This document shows positions 11,284 to 32,449 of a DNA stretch of 40,439 nucleotides, one piece after another. This DNA comes from Actinomycetota bacterium (GTDB taxonomy: Bacteria > Actinomycetota > Acidimicrobiia > Acidimicrobiales > Ilumatobacteraceae). Within the stretch, counting starts at the first letter, position 1. The number at the start of each line of letters is the position of its first letter. Below the pieces are notes generated by a model. It had not been told where the DNA came from. It saw only the letters and a program-made list of their open reading frames with translations, and did not search any database. The position numbers were made by a program, and so were the translations under genes. The stretch is taken from the NCBI GenBank assembly GCA_005790505.1, contig SXUP01000027.1:1-40439 (forward strand), in the 5' to 3' direction.

Positions 11284-12204
11284 ATGCCAAAGGTTTCAGA
11301 GAACATGAGTGGCTGGCTAACAGTGAGCGTTTACCGCCTCGGGTCACTGATCGCTAGGTTGATTCCAGCATCCATTGCGCAACGCACGGTCTCCCTTGCA
11401 GCGCCTATTTTTGCTTTTGTGCTCCATTATCGACGGGGCGTTATTCAACGACATCTTCAGCGGGTAGATCCTGGTTTGTGCGGCCAAGACTTGCGAAAAA
11501 CTTCACAAAAATCATTTGAAAGCTACATGCGTTATTACGTTGAAAGTTTCCAGTTGCCAAGGCTCTCTCGCGATGAAGTCGAAAAAAATTTCACGATGGA
11601 GGGGCTTGAACACATCATGCAGGCTCTTGAGCGCGGTAAAGGTGCCATCATGGTAATTCCTCACCTTGGTGGATGGGAGTGGGCAGGACGATGGATGTCT
11701 GAAAATGGACACAATATGACCGTCGTTGTGGAAGCACTTGAGCCCCCCAAGCTTTTCGAGTGGTTTGCAAATTTGCGATCAAGCCTTGGCATGAATGTGC
11801 TCGCACTCGGACCTGATGTTGTTCCTCGAGTTCTTGGGGCATTAAAGGCCAATCAAGTGGTGTGCTTGTTGTCTGATCGAGATATCGGGCGCAACGGTGT
11901 TGCCGTTGATTTCTTTGGAGAACGGACCACTCTGCCGGCAGGACCAGCAACACTTGCTTTTCGTGCTGACTCCGTCGTCATCCCATCGGCGGTGTATTTC
12001 ACTCCAACCGTGCACGGGCACCACACGGTGATACGCCCACCATTGTTATTAGAAAGGCGCGGTAGTTTGCGTCAAGATGTGGGACGAGTGACTCAGGACA
12101 TTGCCCATGAGATGGAGGTTTTGATTCGTCTTGCTCCAGAACAGTGGCACATGTTTCAACCAAATTGGCCGAGTGATCCAGGCTATGAAATTCTCGATAG
12201 ATAA
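11284..12204 (+). CDS. patA: phosphatidylinositol mannoside acyltransferase (HtrB/LpxL-like)
   Basis: A 306-residue member of the bacterial lipid A acyltransferase (LpxL/HtrB) superfamily; the actinobacterial version, PatA, transfers palmitoyl from acyl-CoA to the mannose of phosphatidylinositol mannosides at the inner membrane face. The catalytic H-x4-E motif is His127-LGGW-Glu132 within VIPHLGGWEWAG. Other family features are the N-terminal hydrophobic segment (residues 12-46), LLSDRDIGRNGVAVDFFGE, and RTTLPAGPATLAFR, which bind the acyl and glycan substrates. The C-terminus has APEQWHMFQPNW, a strong PatA/HtrB hallmark. It starts 11 bases after pgsA. Its 3' end is overlapped antisense by the interrupted tail of the ArsR gene. 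The position between pgsA and pimA matches mycobacteria. Confidence 0.92.
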   Translation: MPKVSENMSGWLTVSVYRLGSLIARLIPASIAQRTVSLAAPIFAFVLHYRRGVIQRHLQRVDPGLCGQDLRKTSQKSFESYMRYYVESFQLPRLSRDEVEKNFTMEGLEHIMQALERGKGAIMVIPHLGGWEWAGRWMSENGHNMTVVVEALEPPKLFEWFANLRSSLGMNVLALGPDVVPRVLGALKANQVVCLLSDRDIGRNGVAVDFFGERTTLPAGPATLAFRADSVVIPSAVYFTPTVHGHHTVIRPPLLLERRGSLRQDVGRVTQDIAHEMEVLIRLAPEQWHMFQPNWPSDPGYEILDR

Positions 12205-12242
12205 TCTTTGACACGATAAAACGCCTTTGGTGAGATCGTGTA

Positions 12243-12452
12243 CTAGAGCCATGTACCCTCGCGTCGCGCCGAAACGACGCCAGCCTGCCGCAGAACCTCG
12301 AGATGATGACTAATAGTTGGCTCAGAACGTTGCAGGGGAGCGACGAGATTACATTTGCAGATGCCATTTGGGCCCGTACGTGAAACAAGGTCGAGCAGAC
12401 TAATTCGCACCGGATCACCAAGTGCCGAGCACACGGTTGAAACTATCGACAA
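12243..12452 (-). CDS. ArsR-family metalloregulator, truncated by an in-frame TAG
   Basis: A 69-residue winged-helix DNA-binding protein of the ArsR/SmtB family. It has the N-terminal helix ALGDPVRISLLDLV, then GICKCNL with Cys32 and Cys34, matching the alpha-3 arsenite-binding CxC (ELCVCDL) of E. coli ArsR, then the recognition helix SEPTISHHLEVLRQAGVV. The frame ends at TAG (plus-strand bases 12243-12245) in the middle of the wing. Beyond the stop the same frame continues for 20 codons with a typical ArsR ending (YTISPKAFYRVKDYLSRIS) to a second TAG at 12183-12185. The full protein would be about 90 residues, normal for the family. The start is a TTG at 12452. No arsenic-resistance gene is nearby. 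It could be a fresh pseudogene, a sequence error or a still functional short form. Confidence 0.75.
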   Translation of the reverse strand: MSIVSTVCSALGDPVRISLLDLVSRTGPNGICKCNLVAPLQRSEPTISHHLEVLRQAGVVSARREGTWL

Positions 12453-12593: not shown

Positions 12594-13508
12594 CTACTCG
12601 TAGAGAGAAAACAATTCGCCAATTGCTTTTGCCTGACCTCCGGTCGTGGAAGACATCACGGCGATCGGCGTGACACCGGTATTCGCCCAAGCCAAAAGCC
12701 CCTCCCGAACTTGATGAGCGGAGCCGCTCAGAGTGCAGTCGTGCAGCCAATCATCTGTCATCAATTGAGGTAGCGCATCTCTATCGCCGGCATCAATCGC
12801 TGTTTCAATGGCATCCATTTCTTCGTGATACCCAGCTGCCCGCCAGTAATTCCTGTAGTTCGGCAGAGACACATATCCAGTCAAGGTTCGTCGATGAATG
12901 GCATCGGCGGCCTTGCGGTCTTTGTCAATAACCGTTGGAATCATGTTGGCAAAAAATAATGACTCGCGCTGCTCCGCTGAAAGAGTTGATAATTGCGAAG
13001 ACATGTGGCTAAGAGATGCGTTGGCCCAAATTGCACCCTCAGAAATGTCGGCTGCTAATTTGAGCATCTTGTCTCGTAGTGTTGCTAAGTAAATCGGCGG
13101 AAGTGCGCCACCAAAGCGCTCGTTCTCACGCATTGCCGCCACGTATGACGAGATATCTGAAAGTGGCTTGCCCGTCGTGACGCCGAGCCGCTGCACAACT
13201 GGTCCATGACTGACTCCAAGACCCAAACGAAATCGCCCATTGGAGACCTCGTGGATGTGTGCGGCGACATTGGCGGTCTCTACGGGATGGCTGTAGTAAA
13301 TCGGTTGAATTGATGTCCAATACGAAATCGTTTGAGTCGTGTGCGCAAGAGACACACACAAGCCCAGTGTTCCGCCCAGACTCGGACATGCCAGTCCGGA
13401 GAATCCGCGTTGCTCGGCTTGAACAGCAAGTTCTAAAATCGCACTCCGCTTTTTGGGGCTAGCCACGATTGAGAGCGCCGGGCGGAAGGTTGTTTCATTA
13501 ATGTTCAT
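12594..13508 (-). CDS. LLM-class (luciferase-like) F420-dependent oxidoreductase
   Basis: A 304-residue TIM-barrel protein of the bacterial luciferase-like superfamily; actinobacterial members of this type mostly use reduced F420 or FMN. Visible family features are the first strand (RPALSIVASPKKRS), the SYWTSIQPIYYSHPVETANVAAHIHEVSNGR region, in which the helix ends in SNGRFRLGLGVSHG (the diagnostic S-x-G-R-x-x-L-G-x-G), and the C-terminal DWLHDCTLSGSAHQVREGL. An upstream in-frame start would add 35 residues including LLLI-rich sequence; the ATG at 13508 is preferred because the barrel starts there and a TACGGT hexamer lies 7 bases upstream. It is divergent from pimA. The substrate is unknown. 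Confidence 0.88.
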   Translation of the reverse strand: MNINETTFRPALSIVASPKKRSAILELAVQAEQRGFSGLACPSLGGTLGLCVSLAHTTQTISYWTSIQPIYYSHPVETANVAAHIHEVSNGRFRLGLGVSHGPVVQRLGVTTGKPLSDISSYVAAMRENERFGGALPPIYLATLRDKMLKLAADISEGAIWANASLSHMSSQLSTLSAEQRESLFFANMIPTVIDKDRKAADAIHRRTLTGYVSLPNYRNYWRAAGYHEEMDAIETAIDAGDRDALPQLMTDDWLHDCTLSGSAHQVREGLLAWANTGVTPIAVMSSTTGGQAKAIGELFSLYE

Positions 13509-13515
13509 GGAACCA

Positions 13516-13521
13516 ACCGTA
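13516..13521 (-). promoter_or_regulatory. -10-like hexamer for the LLM oxidoreductase gene
   Basis: On the minus strand TACGGT is followed by seven bases (TGGTTCC) and the ATG at 13508, with no Shine-Dalgarno sequence. The nearby palindrome at 13531-13552 would sit upstream of this hexamer, so a bound protein could control it. Confidence 0.4.
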
Positions 13522-13530
13522 GTAGGCAAG

Positions 13531-13552
13531 TCTCTACCGCCTACGGTAGAGA
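13531..13552. promoter_or_regulatory. perfect palindrome between divergent LLM gene and pimA (candidate operator)
   Basis: The arms TCTCTACCG (13531-13539) and CGGTAGAGA (13544-13552) are exact reverse complements around a four-base centre, CCTA. The palindrome lies in the 103-base gap between the divergent starts. A second overlapping pairing exists: GTAGGC (13522-13527) with GCCTAC (13539-13544). The right arm contains part of TACGGT (13542-13547), a -10-like hexamer 7 bases before an in-frame ATG of pimA at 13555. This is typical of a dimeric repressor site such as TetR or GntR type, but the regulator is not identified. Confidence 0.5.
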
Positions 13553-13611
13553 TGATGAGCAACAACGGGGGCAAGAACAACACGCGCCTAGATTCGGTTG
13601 CAGGTGTCAGC

Positions 13612-14775
13612 ATGTTGCGGGTTGGAATGATTTGTCCCTACAGCCTCACTATTCCTGGTGGTGTGCAACACCAAGTACTCGGATTGGCTCGCAGCCTGAG
13701 AGCCAAAGGTCATGAAGTTCGTGTTCTGGGACCCTGCGATGGGCCACCACCTGAATCATTTGTGACACCACTTGGCAATAGTTTTTTAAATGCAACGAAT
13801 GGTTCGGTTGCACCGCTTGCACCAGACCCATCCGCCACCTTGCGCACTATTCGCGCGCTCAATGACGAGGCTTTTGATGTTCTTCATATTCATGAGCCAC
13901 TTGCGCCTGGTCCACCAATGACCTCGTTGATGCTCAAACTTGCACCAATTGTCGGAACATTTCATAGTGCGGGTGAGTCGGCTGGTTACCGGACGCTCCA
14001 GCGTCAGTTGAACTGGATGATAAAGCGTTGTGATGTTCGCACAGCCGTCTCAAAGGATGCGCTTGAATTGGCGCAACGTTATTTTCCGGGCGAGTACGAG
14101 GTCCTATATAACGGAATCGAACTTGACAGTTATCGCTCATCAGAAGTGGTGCCGCGTGAGAATGCAATATTTTTTGTTGGTCGACATGAGCCCCGAAAAG
14201 GACTCGAGATCCTCATCAAGGCAGTAATGCAGATGCCTGATGATGTGGTTTTGTGGATTGCATCAGATGGTCCCGAGACCGCGGACTTAATGCATCGGTA
14301 TAGCCACCTAACAAAAGTGCAGTGGCTCGGGCGCATAAGTGATGCCGAAAAATATCTTCGACTTCGTCGTTGCTCAGTCTTTTGTGCTCCGTCACTACAT
14401 GGTGAGTCATTTGGAGTGGTGCTTCTTGAGGCGATGGCGGCGGGGGCTCCTGTCGTAGCAAGTGCACTAGACGGATATAAAAATGTTGCGACTCATGACG
14501 TGGACTCCTTGTTAGTAGAACCCGGAAATACGGTGCAGTTGGCAGCCGCTCTGGCGCGAGTAATCGTCGATCCACGAATCTCTGCCCGCTTGGTCAAGGC
14601 GGGCAATTTGCAAGCAGACAGACATTCAATGGTGTCGTTGGCAACAAGATTTGAAGATCTTTACCATCAAGCATTGGCTAAAGAGGCTGCTGATGGATCG
14701 GTTCACCGAACACCACGTATGCTCAAGATATTCGAAAGTCGTCTTCTTGGGCGCTCGCGTTCGGGCATAAAATAG
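13612..14775 (+). CDS. pimA: phosphatidylinositol alpha-mannosyltransferase
   Basis: A GT4 retaining glycosyltransferase of 387 residues that adds the first mannose from GDP-mannose to phosphatidylinositol at the cytoplasmic membrane face. The N-terminus MLRVGMICPYSLTIPGGVQ is nearly the PimA hallmark, with the PGG loop, followed by LARSLRAKGHEVRVLGP. Later features are GTFHSAGES, the GT4 donor-site regions FFVGRHEPRKGLEILIKA, and the E-x7-E motif HGESFGVVLLEAMAAGAPVV, whose glutamates are GESFGVVLLE. The start at 13612 fits the family and has AGGTG six bases before. In-frame ATGs at 13552/13555 would give 19 or 20 extra residues and would suit a leaderless transcript from TACGGT at 13542. 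Gene order with pgsA and patA supports the assignment. Confidence 0.9.
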   Translation: MLRVGMICPYSLTIPGGVQHQVLGLARSLRAKGHEVRVLGPCDGPPPESFVTPLGNSFLNATNGSVAPLAPDPSATLRTIRALNDEAFDVLHIHEPLAPGPPMTSLMLKLAPIVGTFHSAGESAGYRTLQRQLNWMIKRCDVRTAVSKDALELAQRYFPGEYEVLYNGIELDSYRSSEVVPRENAIFFVGRHEPRKGLEILIKAVMQMPDDVVLWIASDGPETADLMHRYSHLTKVQWLGRISDAEKYLRLRRCSVFCAPSLHGESFGVVLLEAMAAGAPVVASALDGYKNVATHDVDSLLVEPGNTVQLAAALARVIVDPRISARLVKAGNLQADRHSMVSLATRFEDLYHQALAKEAADGSVHRTPRMLKIFESRLLGRSRSGIK

Positions 14776-30689: not shown

Positions 30690-32449
30690 GCAGTACATCA
30701 ATGCGTACACACCTTTGTGGAGAGTTGCGGAATGCTGATATCGGCAAGACTGTCACGGTTTGCGGTTGGGTGGGTCGTCGGCGTGAGCATGGCGAGCGTT
30801 TGGCATTTCTGGATATTCGCGACCACTCGGGCATCATTCAGTGTGTCGTTGACAATGACGTAGACGTGCGAAGTGAATATGTCGTGCAGATAAAGGGAAC
30901 AATCCGGGCCAGACCAGAAGGAACAGTAAATGGCACTATCCCAACTGGTGAAGTTGAGATCGGGGACTGTGTCGTGGTCGTACTCAATAATGCCGAGCCT
31001 CCTCCATTTGCAATTGACGCCCGCACCGACGATGTTGACGAATTGACTCGTCTTAAATTTCGATATTTAGATATACGCAGGGAGCGTCTGCAAAAGAATC
31101 TGCGATTGCGGGCAGAGATTAACTCTGCCATCAGAACTGCAATGGAAATCCAGGGATTTGTTGAAGTAGAGACTCCGATGTTGATGCCGTCAACACCAGA
31201 GGGGGCGAGAGAATTCTTGGTCCCCTCGCGGAAAGAACCGGGCTCATTTTATGCCCTCCCACAATCTCCTCAACTGTGGAAACAATTATTGATGCTGGCT
31301 GGCGTTGATAGGTACTACCAGATTGCGCGTTGCTTGCGTGACGAAGACTTACGCGCCGATCGGCAGTACGAGTTTATGCAACTAGATGCCGAGATGTCTT
31401 TTGTGAATCAAGATGACGTGCTAACAGCGATCGGAGCGGCAGTTACTGCGGCTGCCACGGTGGCAACTGGCTCGGCGCCACCTGAAATAGAGCGAATGAC
31501 TTGGCGAGATGCGATGGAGAATTACGGCGTCGACAAGCCTGACCTGCGATTTGAAATGAAGTTGATTGACGTTACGTCAATTTTTTCCTCGACTGAATTC
31601 AAAGCTTTTGCTGGAGCAGCCTCAATAAAGGCAATCTGTGTTGACTCAGTCACCTATCCAGATGCCGCCGCATCTGGACGAAATAAGTTGGATGCATTTA
31701 CTGATCGTGCCAAAAAAATCGGAGCCAAGGGTCTGGTTTGGATAAAAGTCGGTACTGATTCAGCACTTGACTCTCCTGTGGCAAAGTTTTTGTCAGACCA
31801 AGAAAAAGTGGAGTTGTTGCAGACAACAGGCGCGACCCAAGGTGATTTGATTTTGATCGTTGCAGATGAATGGTCAACGACATGCGAAGTTCTAGGTCAA
31901 TTACGAAACGACATCGGACGTCCACCTGTACATGTAGGCCCTTATCGGTATGTGTGGGTGGTGGATTTTCCACTATTTGTCGGGGTTGATCCCGTTACTG
32001 GAGCACCCCGACCTGGACATCATCCTTTTTGCCATCCTCACCCGGAGGACATTCACCTCATGGAGACAGATCCACTCAAGGTTCGAGCGCTGGCCTACGA
32101 TCTTGTGTTGAACGGCTGGGAACTCGGGAGTGGCTCGATTCGAATTCATGAACCAGAACTACAGCGCAGGGTTTTTAATCTGCTTGGAATATCAGACGAA
32201 GAAGCTGATAAAAAATTTGGGTTTTTTCTGCAACCATTCAAATATGGAGCTCCTCCCCATGGTGGGTTTGCTTTCGGCATTGATCGCCTCACCGCCGTGC
32301 TGGCAGGAGAAGAAAATATTCGAGAGGTGATTGCATTTCCTAAGACTCAAAGTGGCACCGACCCGATGACTAATGCGCCGACGGTGGTTGACGCCAAACA
32401 CTTAACGGAACTTGGTCTGCGCGTCCTTCCTCCTCCAGCATCGGCGTAG
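30686..32449 (+). CDS. aspS: aspartate--tRNA ligase (possibly non-discriminating Asp/Asn)
   Basis: Class II synthetase of 587 residues, bacterial type with the GAD insertion. The N-terminal OB anticodon domain has VCGWVGRRREHGERLAFLDI; the catalytic core includes FVEVETPMLMPSTPEGAREF, motif 2 RCLRDEDLRADRQYEFMQLD, and motif 3 AFGIDRLTAVLAG with VIAFPKTQSG. Two residues I recall as hallmarks of non-discriminating AspRS, which also charge tRNA-Asn, are present: His35 in RRREHG and Gly79 in RARPEG. This suggests Asn-tRNA is made through the GatCAB amidotransferase route, not shown here. A strong ribosome-binding site (GGAGG) precedes the ATG, which overlaps the hisS stop. Confidence 0.97.
   Translation: MSSTSMRTHLCGELRNADIGKTVTVCGWVGRRREHGERLAFLDIRDHSGIIQCVVDNDVDVRSEYVVQIKGTIRARPEGTVNGTIPTGEVEIGDCVVVVLNNAEPPPFAIDARTDDVDELTRLKFRYLDIRRERLQKNLRLRAEINSAIRTAMEIQGFVEVETPMLMPSTPEGAREFLVPSRKEPGSFYALPQSPQLWKQLLMLAGVDRYYQIARCLRDEDLRADRQYEFMQLDAEMSFVNQDDVLTAIGAAVTAAATVATGSAPPEIERMTWRDAMENYGVDKPDLRFEMKLIDVTSIFSSTEFKAFAGAASIKAICVDSVTYPDAAASGRNKLDAFTDRAKKIGAKGLVWIKVGTDSALDSPVAKFLSDQEKVELLQTTGATQGDLILIVADEWSTTCEVLGQLRNDIGRPPVHVGPYRYVWVVDFPLFVGVDPVTGAPRPGHHPFCHPHPEDIHLMETDPLKVRALAYDLVLNGWELGSGSIRIHEPELQRRVFNLLGISDEEADKKFGFFLQPFKYGAPPHGGFAFGIDRLTAVLAGEENIREVIAFPKTQSGTDPMTNAPTVVDAKHLTELGLRVLPPPASA

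Follow-up and report, generated by a model that had tools for sequence, protein, structure and literature searches.

A palindrome between divergent LLM oxidoreductase and pimA genes of an Ilumatobacteraceae bacterium is probably incidental to two predicted back-to-back leaderless promoters

Why does a perfect palindrome lie between two divergent genes, one encoding an oxidoreductase and the other a homologue of PimA? Could a single bound dimer control both promoters, as the original prediction proposed, or does the shared DNA serve the two genes in another way? The locus belongs to a stretch of 40,439 nucleotides from an Actinomycetota bacterium (contig SXUP01000027.1), analysed as a whole and referred to here as the window. 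The gene for an LLM-class (luciferase-like) oxidoreductase occupies 12594-13508 on the minus strand, and the conserved part of the pimA homologue (GT4, phosphatidylinositol mannosyltransferase-like) occupies 13612-14775 on the plus strand. Neighbours next to LLM are genes for a CDP-alcohol phosphatidyltransferase and an acyltransferase; those next to pimA are lemA-like and M48-protease-like. A sequence check bore out the palindrome: TCTCTACCG-CCTA-CGGTAGAGA at 13531-13552 (unstranded) is an exact dyad with 9-bp arms and a 4-bp loop. The divergent gap had been taken for the likely control site of both genes, rightly in our judgement. We consider it very probable, however, that the gap consists of a back-to-back pair of -10-driven promoters, each serving a leaderless gene, and that the palindrome overlies them incidentally and in this species only.

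The two TACGGT boxes that were said to overlap or flank the dyad are both present. The candidate pimA -10 box (13542-13547, plus strand) stands 7 nt ahead of an ATG at 13555; the candidate LLM -10 box (13516-13521, minus strand; ACCGTA on the plus strand) stands 7 nt ahead of the LLM start codon, an ATG at 13506-13508 (minus strand) that is predicted to be leaderless. Across the closest clade, which comprises the window genome and its relatives G028, G022 and G021 (LLM 89-91% identical), the gap can be aligned with few gaps, and two blocks in it are invariant, CCAACCGTAGT and CTACGGTAG. Each holds a TACGGT box, in opposite orientations. Together the boxes make an unstranded 7-bp inverted repeat, with ACCGTAG at 13516-13522 as its left half, identical in the four clade genomes, and CTACGGT at 13541-13547 as its right half, 18 nt away. 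All 28 of 28 cells of this repeat are paired in the clade, which amounts to conservation and not to covariation, because the pairs never vary. With position 13548 the pimA box forms the heptamer TACGGTA, symmetric in all four clade members, and might drive leftward transcription as well.

A TANNNT located some 12 nt ahead of the start codon is described as the signature of leaderless promoters in Actinobacteria (PMC3898074, PMC3160421). A 373-kb sample of the window's own genome carries a signal of this kind. Before 1206 candidate starts of 315 long open reading frames, taken from a simple ORF caller, TANNNT occurs 46 times at a spacing of 6 nt and 22 times at 7 nt, against a mean of 6.8 over the remaining 23 spacings between 0 and 24 (highest 18, at spacing 9). 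The relative G001 gives 42 and 39 at spacings 6 and 7 against a mean of 4.6 elsewhere, where no count exceeds the 17 at spacing 8 and the 19 at spacing 9. LLM and pimA both carry TANNNT in the 6-7 nt register, each at 7 nt. The nonamer of the pimA box, CTACGGTAG, has four genomic copies, and each is followed by a gene start at a spacing of 6-9 nt when spacings of 4-11 are examined: pimA (7 nt), pup (6 nt), glpX (7 nt) and a lysyl-tRNA-synthetase-like gene starting with GTG (9 nt). The label of this last gene rests on a 70-residue piece for which designed TIM barrels score better E-values and Pfam gives nothing. The nonamer is rare overall, its reverse being far commoner (20+36 matches versus 2+2). 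The palindrome's right arm, which overlaps the pimA box, is most readily understood as part of a promoter because of this leaderless spacing signal and because all four copies of the nonamer precede starts. At pup (L191, G000:C9:10850-11350), the box lies 6 nt before the ATG, and that gene start is likewise predicted to be leaderless.

How general is this arrangement? We collected 103 family genomes with the divergent pair, of which 30 belong to the genus and the remaining 73 to 11 other genera; two of 32 genus rows were dropped (G031 for a masked gap, G019 for want of a good match to either gene). In the family sampling, 60 of 200 genomes had no LLM match at 1e-60, 38 of the 140 LLM-bearing genomes were left out, and 8 of 80 loci were excluded with no pimA in reach. 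Of the 103 genomes, 86 have TANNNT at 6-7 nt from an in-frame start for pimA, 78 for LLM and 61 for both, counts in which related genomes are not independent samples. The highest values reached by nine other spacing pairs are 22 for pimA (12-13 nt), 10 for LLM (12-13 nt) and 3 for both (8-9 nt). The two-box design is not universal in the family: the pimA box is absent at this spacing in 17 of 103 genomes, among them nine of the ten g47 rows, and the LLM box in 25 of 103, including all 16 g6, all seven g34 and both g43 rows.

The ATG at 13555 lies in frame with pimA, 57 nt before the conserved MLR start at 13612. Is it the true start? Wherever TA[CG][CG]GT is followed after 6-7 nt by ATG or GTG, no more than 110 nt upstream of MLR, this start is in frame with pimA (68 of 68), and 54 of the 68 lie at a non-zero distance from MLR, with 14 different lengths that span 6-99 nt. 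Only one third of the non-zero ones would be expected in frame by chance; the extensions therefore look coding and the upstream starts real. None of the upstream starts in the family set is followed by a stop codon before MLR. We thus favour 13555 as the true pimA start over 13612, with a proposed 19-codon N-terminal extension at 13555-13611 (plus strand) before the conserved MLRVG. The gap had been given as 13509-13611; its LLM edge stands, but its pimA edge rests on the start at 13612, and the evidence favours a true gap of 13509-13554. An N-terminal PimA extension of 16-19 residues is common to the four-genome clade, and elsewhere in the family PimA is extended by different lengths in other genera. 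Box positions, spacing, conservation and reading frame are all read directly from the sequence.

Alternatively, pimA could be transcribed from the box at 13542 and translated from 13612 by a Shine-Dalgarno start, with a 57-nt leader. MLR is the conserved N terminus and, in the compact genomes described below, the start codon itself, and by eye a weak purine-rich stretch can be seen upstream of 13612; the MLR start could still serve. The in-frame register of all 68 upstream starts, at 14 different lengths and with reading frames open as far as MLR, nevertheless makes a 57-nt leader unlikely.

If the boxes are promoters, does the palindrome add anything to them? Within the window the dyad is the only match to its own pattern at up to 3 mismatches. 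The window contains two perfect dyads whose arms reach 9 or more and whose loops do not exceed 20, compared with a mean of 3.65 in 20 windows simulated by a first-order Markov model, so that one such dyad in the window is unremarkable; the 373-kb genome sample, window included, holds 42. The other perfect 9-bp-arm dyad of the window, TCCAGATGC-CGCC-GCATCTGGA, lies at 31657-31678. For one given 103-nt gap, an arms-of-9 dyad is an event of about 1%, as estimated from the simulation mean. The original prediction had asked for further copies in the genome. Trimmed to 7-bp arms and allowed up to 2 mismatches, the dyad matches itself and one 2-mismatch site in 2.01 Mb, versus three matches for the reversed-pattern control, so no second strong copy was found there at this setting.

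Neither is the dyad conserved in orthologous gaps. Nine pairs in the window become seven in G028 (one of them G-U), three in G022 and four in G021, and only one of the 103 family gaps, that of the window, has perfect arms of at least 9 (arms of 7 in 10 gaps, of 8 in 2). G028 alone has a sequence within 5 mismatches of the dyad, at 3; in this sister the dyad is degraded, not lost. Over the four clade genomes 23 of 36 cells pair (63.9%), and of six slid controls one reaches the same value (63.9%, slide of -2), one comes close (61.8%, slide of +3) and the remaining four are lower. The left arm, which sits between the two -10 boxes, is variable in the clade. The palindrome contributes nothing visible to the conservation of these aligned gaps. 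Since it is degraded in relatives and has no strong copy elsewhere, the two points on which the original prediction had itself proposed to judge it, the dyad is probably a species-specific chance overlay on two promoter boxes.

These results bear directly on a second explanation, that a dimeric regulator of TetR, MarR or ArsR type, encoded elsewhere, uses the dyad as its species-specific operator and, once bound, would cover the pimA -10 together with the LLM -35 region and repress both genes. In its favour are the perfect 9-bp arms over a -10, the low frequency expected of a dyad of this size in this particular gap, and the sister G028, which keeps seven of the nine pairs. Against this stand the loss of pairing in G022 and G021, the lack of a 9-bp-arm dyad in any other gap of the family set, the absence of a second strong site from the genome, and the pimA -10, which already accounts for one arm. 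The one regulator-like frame examined near the dyad, an ArsR-like frame at 12186-12434 (minus strand) between the acyltransferase and LLM genes, is interrupted by an internal stop. We therefore regard an operator as decidedly improbable, and the proposal that one dimer on the dyad controls both promoters found no support in relatives, in genome copies or in the nearby frame. In G022 an unbroken ArsR-like frame, 60% identical (L036), lies some 1.2 kb past the end of LLM, where the stretch covered runs out; the other 28 genus loci gave no match to the frame at E 1e-3 in stretches reaching at most 1.5 kb from LLM. Less probable still is an RNA hairpin, acting as attenuator or stability element in a 5' leader of pimA or LLM: the region does fold (13523-13560, plus strand, -15.9 kcal/mol, z -3.86 against shuffles; 13500-13560, minus strand, -18.5 kcal/mol, z -2.43), but a good fold is expected anyway from a DNA dyad, and we rejected the RNA-level role that had been allowed for because the dyad is unconserved and, given leaderless starts, lies upstream of +1 of both genes and so outside both mRNAs.

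We return to the two back-to-back promoters. A sigma-70-type RNA polymerase would read TACGGT at 13542-13547 rightwards and produce a pimA mRNA from about the ATG at 13555, and would read TACGGT at 13521-13516 leftwards to produce an LLM mRNA from about the ATG at 13508; ribosomes would begin at the 5' end of each mRNA. From the positions of the boxes we infer the transcription starts, leaderless translation and mutual exclusion of polymerases. RNA polymerase footprints are large enough to overlap when two starts lie 47 bp apart. As the predicted starts lie at this distance, the polymerase footprints should overlap, and the two promoters of the window would probably compete with or exclude each other.

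In most of the genus the same design appears in compressed form. Start codons are only 17-19 nt apart in 24 of 30 members (17 in 5, 18 in 18, 19 in 1), as in CAT-TCCAG-TACCGTA-GTCGGC-ATG. The two hexamers overlap here by 5 bp and merge into a single symmetric heptamer, TANNNTA, which reads as TANNNT from either strand; at a spacing of 6 nt in both directions, such a heptamer would put the starts 18 bp apart. Ten of the compact genomes have TACCGTA and 14 have TAACCTA. All 24 agree in the outer T, A, T and A and in the central C, and the two other core positions differ by type; flanking positions are also near-invariant (23 of 24, one 24 of 24), being in part start-codon bases. In a tree of LLM and PimA, with one outgroup genome (other g2 loci were too short), the 24 compact genomes form one clade (support 0.90) and the six genomes with separate boxes another (0.99). 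TAACCTA occurs in two places of this tree, in G003/G024/G012/G015 (1.0) and in a group of ten that includes G006 and G002 (1.0), both of them nested among genomes with TACCGTA and both keeping the TA...TA frame (loci L007-L031, e.g. L025 and L009). Either two parallel changes or one change with reversals retained the symmetric frame.

We lean towards the view that in these compact genomes a single 7-bp TANNNTA would be the entire promoter of two divergent leaderless genes. The +1 of each would be the A of its start codon, opposite to or at most 2 nt from the T at -18 of the other promoter. Polymerase could face only one way at a time, and pimA, with its role in phosphatidylinositol mannoside synthesis, would be coupled to LLM by direct competition and without a regulator.

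Is this design used elsewhere? We scanned genomes with fixed-spacing patterns, which miss compact members of other spacings. In 32 genomes, 20 from the genus and 12 from the order, the TACCGTA pattern hit seven places, five at LLM-pimA and two elsewhere; the TAACCTA pattern, run on as many genomes, hit six, all at LLM-pimA; both reversed controls hit none. The two other TACCGTA places (L188, L189) have a long reading frame on one side only, the opposite side being an overlapping 50-codon frame in L188 and a stop after 5 codons in L189. Over 400 kb of G001, boxes at 6-7 nt stand on both sides in 7 of 59 divergent pairs and overlap at LLM-pimA only; over 373 kb of the window's own genome, they do so in 5 of 47, none overlapping. 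Other spacings gave no such pairs except 1 of 47 at 8-9 nt. For these counts the limits on ORF overlap and start window were loosened until the LLM-pimA pair of G001 was recovered, a choice made in knowledge of that pair.

The suspected operator thus gives way to a testable rule, that the boxes matter and the palindrome does not, and the probable pimA start in the clade is corrected. Should the transcript starts be confirmed, the genus would offer a natural series with two separate promoters at one end and a single shared, symmetric box at the other, the latter perhaps near the lower limit of DNA separating two expressed divergent genes. It also gives a natural case for polymerase competition at bidirectional promoters.

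Our search of titles and abstract openings, which left most subscription papers outside its reach, found no description of a symmetric -10 driving two leaderless genes. Which known systems come closest? Warman, Grainger and colleagues describe bidirectional promoters that share a symmetric -10, with divergent starts 7-25 bp apart by definition and most commonly 18 bp apart (PMC12825309, PMC10268837). As in these, the 24 compact relatives have one TA-symmetric box with a -10 on each strand. Their predicted starts, 18-20 bp apart (18 in 5, 19 in 18, 20 in 1), come close to the published 18 bp and place 24 of 30 genus members within the definition of 7-25 bp with overlapping -10 elements. The A of each start codon pairs with a T that sits at -18 of the other promoter in the five genomes of the closest set, and 1-2 nt farther off in the others. 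The compact geometry is thus, by prediction, that of published bidirectional promoters with both mRNAs leaderless, and it is the predicted leaderless transcripts that set it apart from what is described there, promoter and both start codons fitting into 23-25 bp. The window itself, with predicted starts 47 bp apart and -10 elements that do not overlap, falls outside the bidirectional definition.

The second comparison is with the leaderless TANNNT promoters of Actinobacteria, whose element likewise lies about 12 nt before the start codon; for M. tuberculosis, no -35 consensus was found (PMC3898074, PMC3160421). Unlike those described in these sources, the promoters considered here stand back to back, and in most of the genus they are merged on one heptamer. 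The nearest single example is prpD / Rv1129c of M. tuberculosis, a divergent pair in which both genes are leaderless, presented in an account that calls closely juxtaposed divergent promoters common (PMC3898074). LLM and pimA resemble it as two divergent neighbours that are both predicted to be leaderless; they differ in the shared symmetric -10 of the compact relatives, a feature that the available part of that account does not describe for prpD / Rv1129c.
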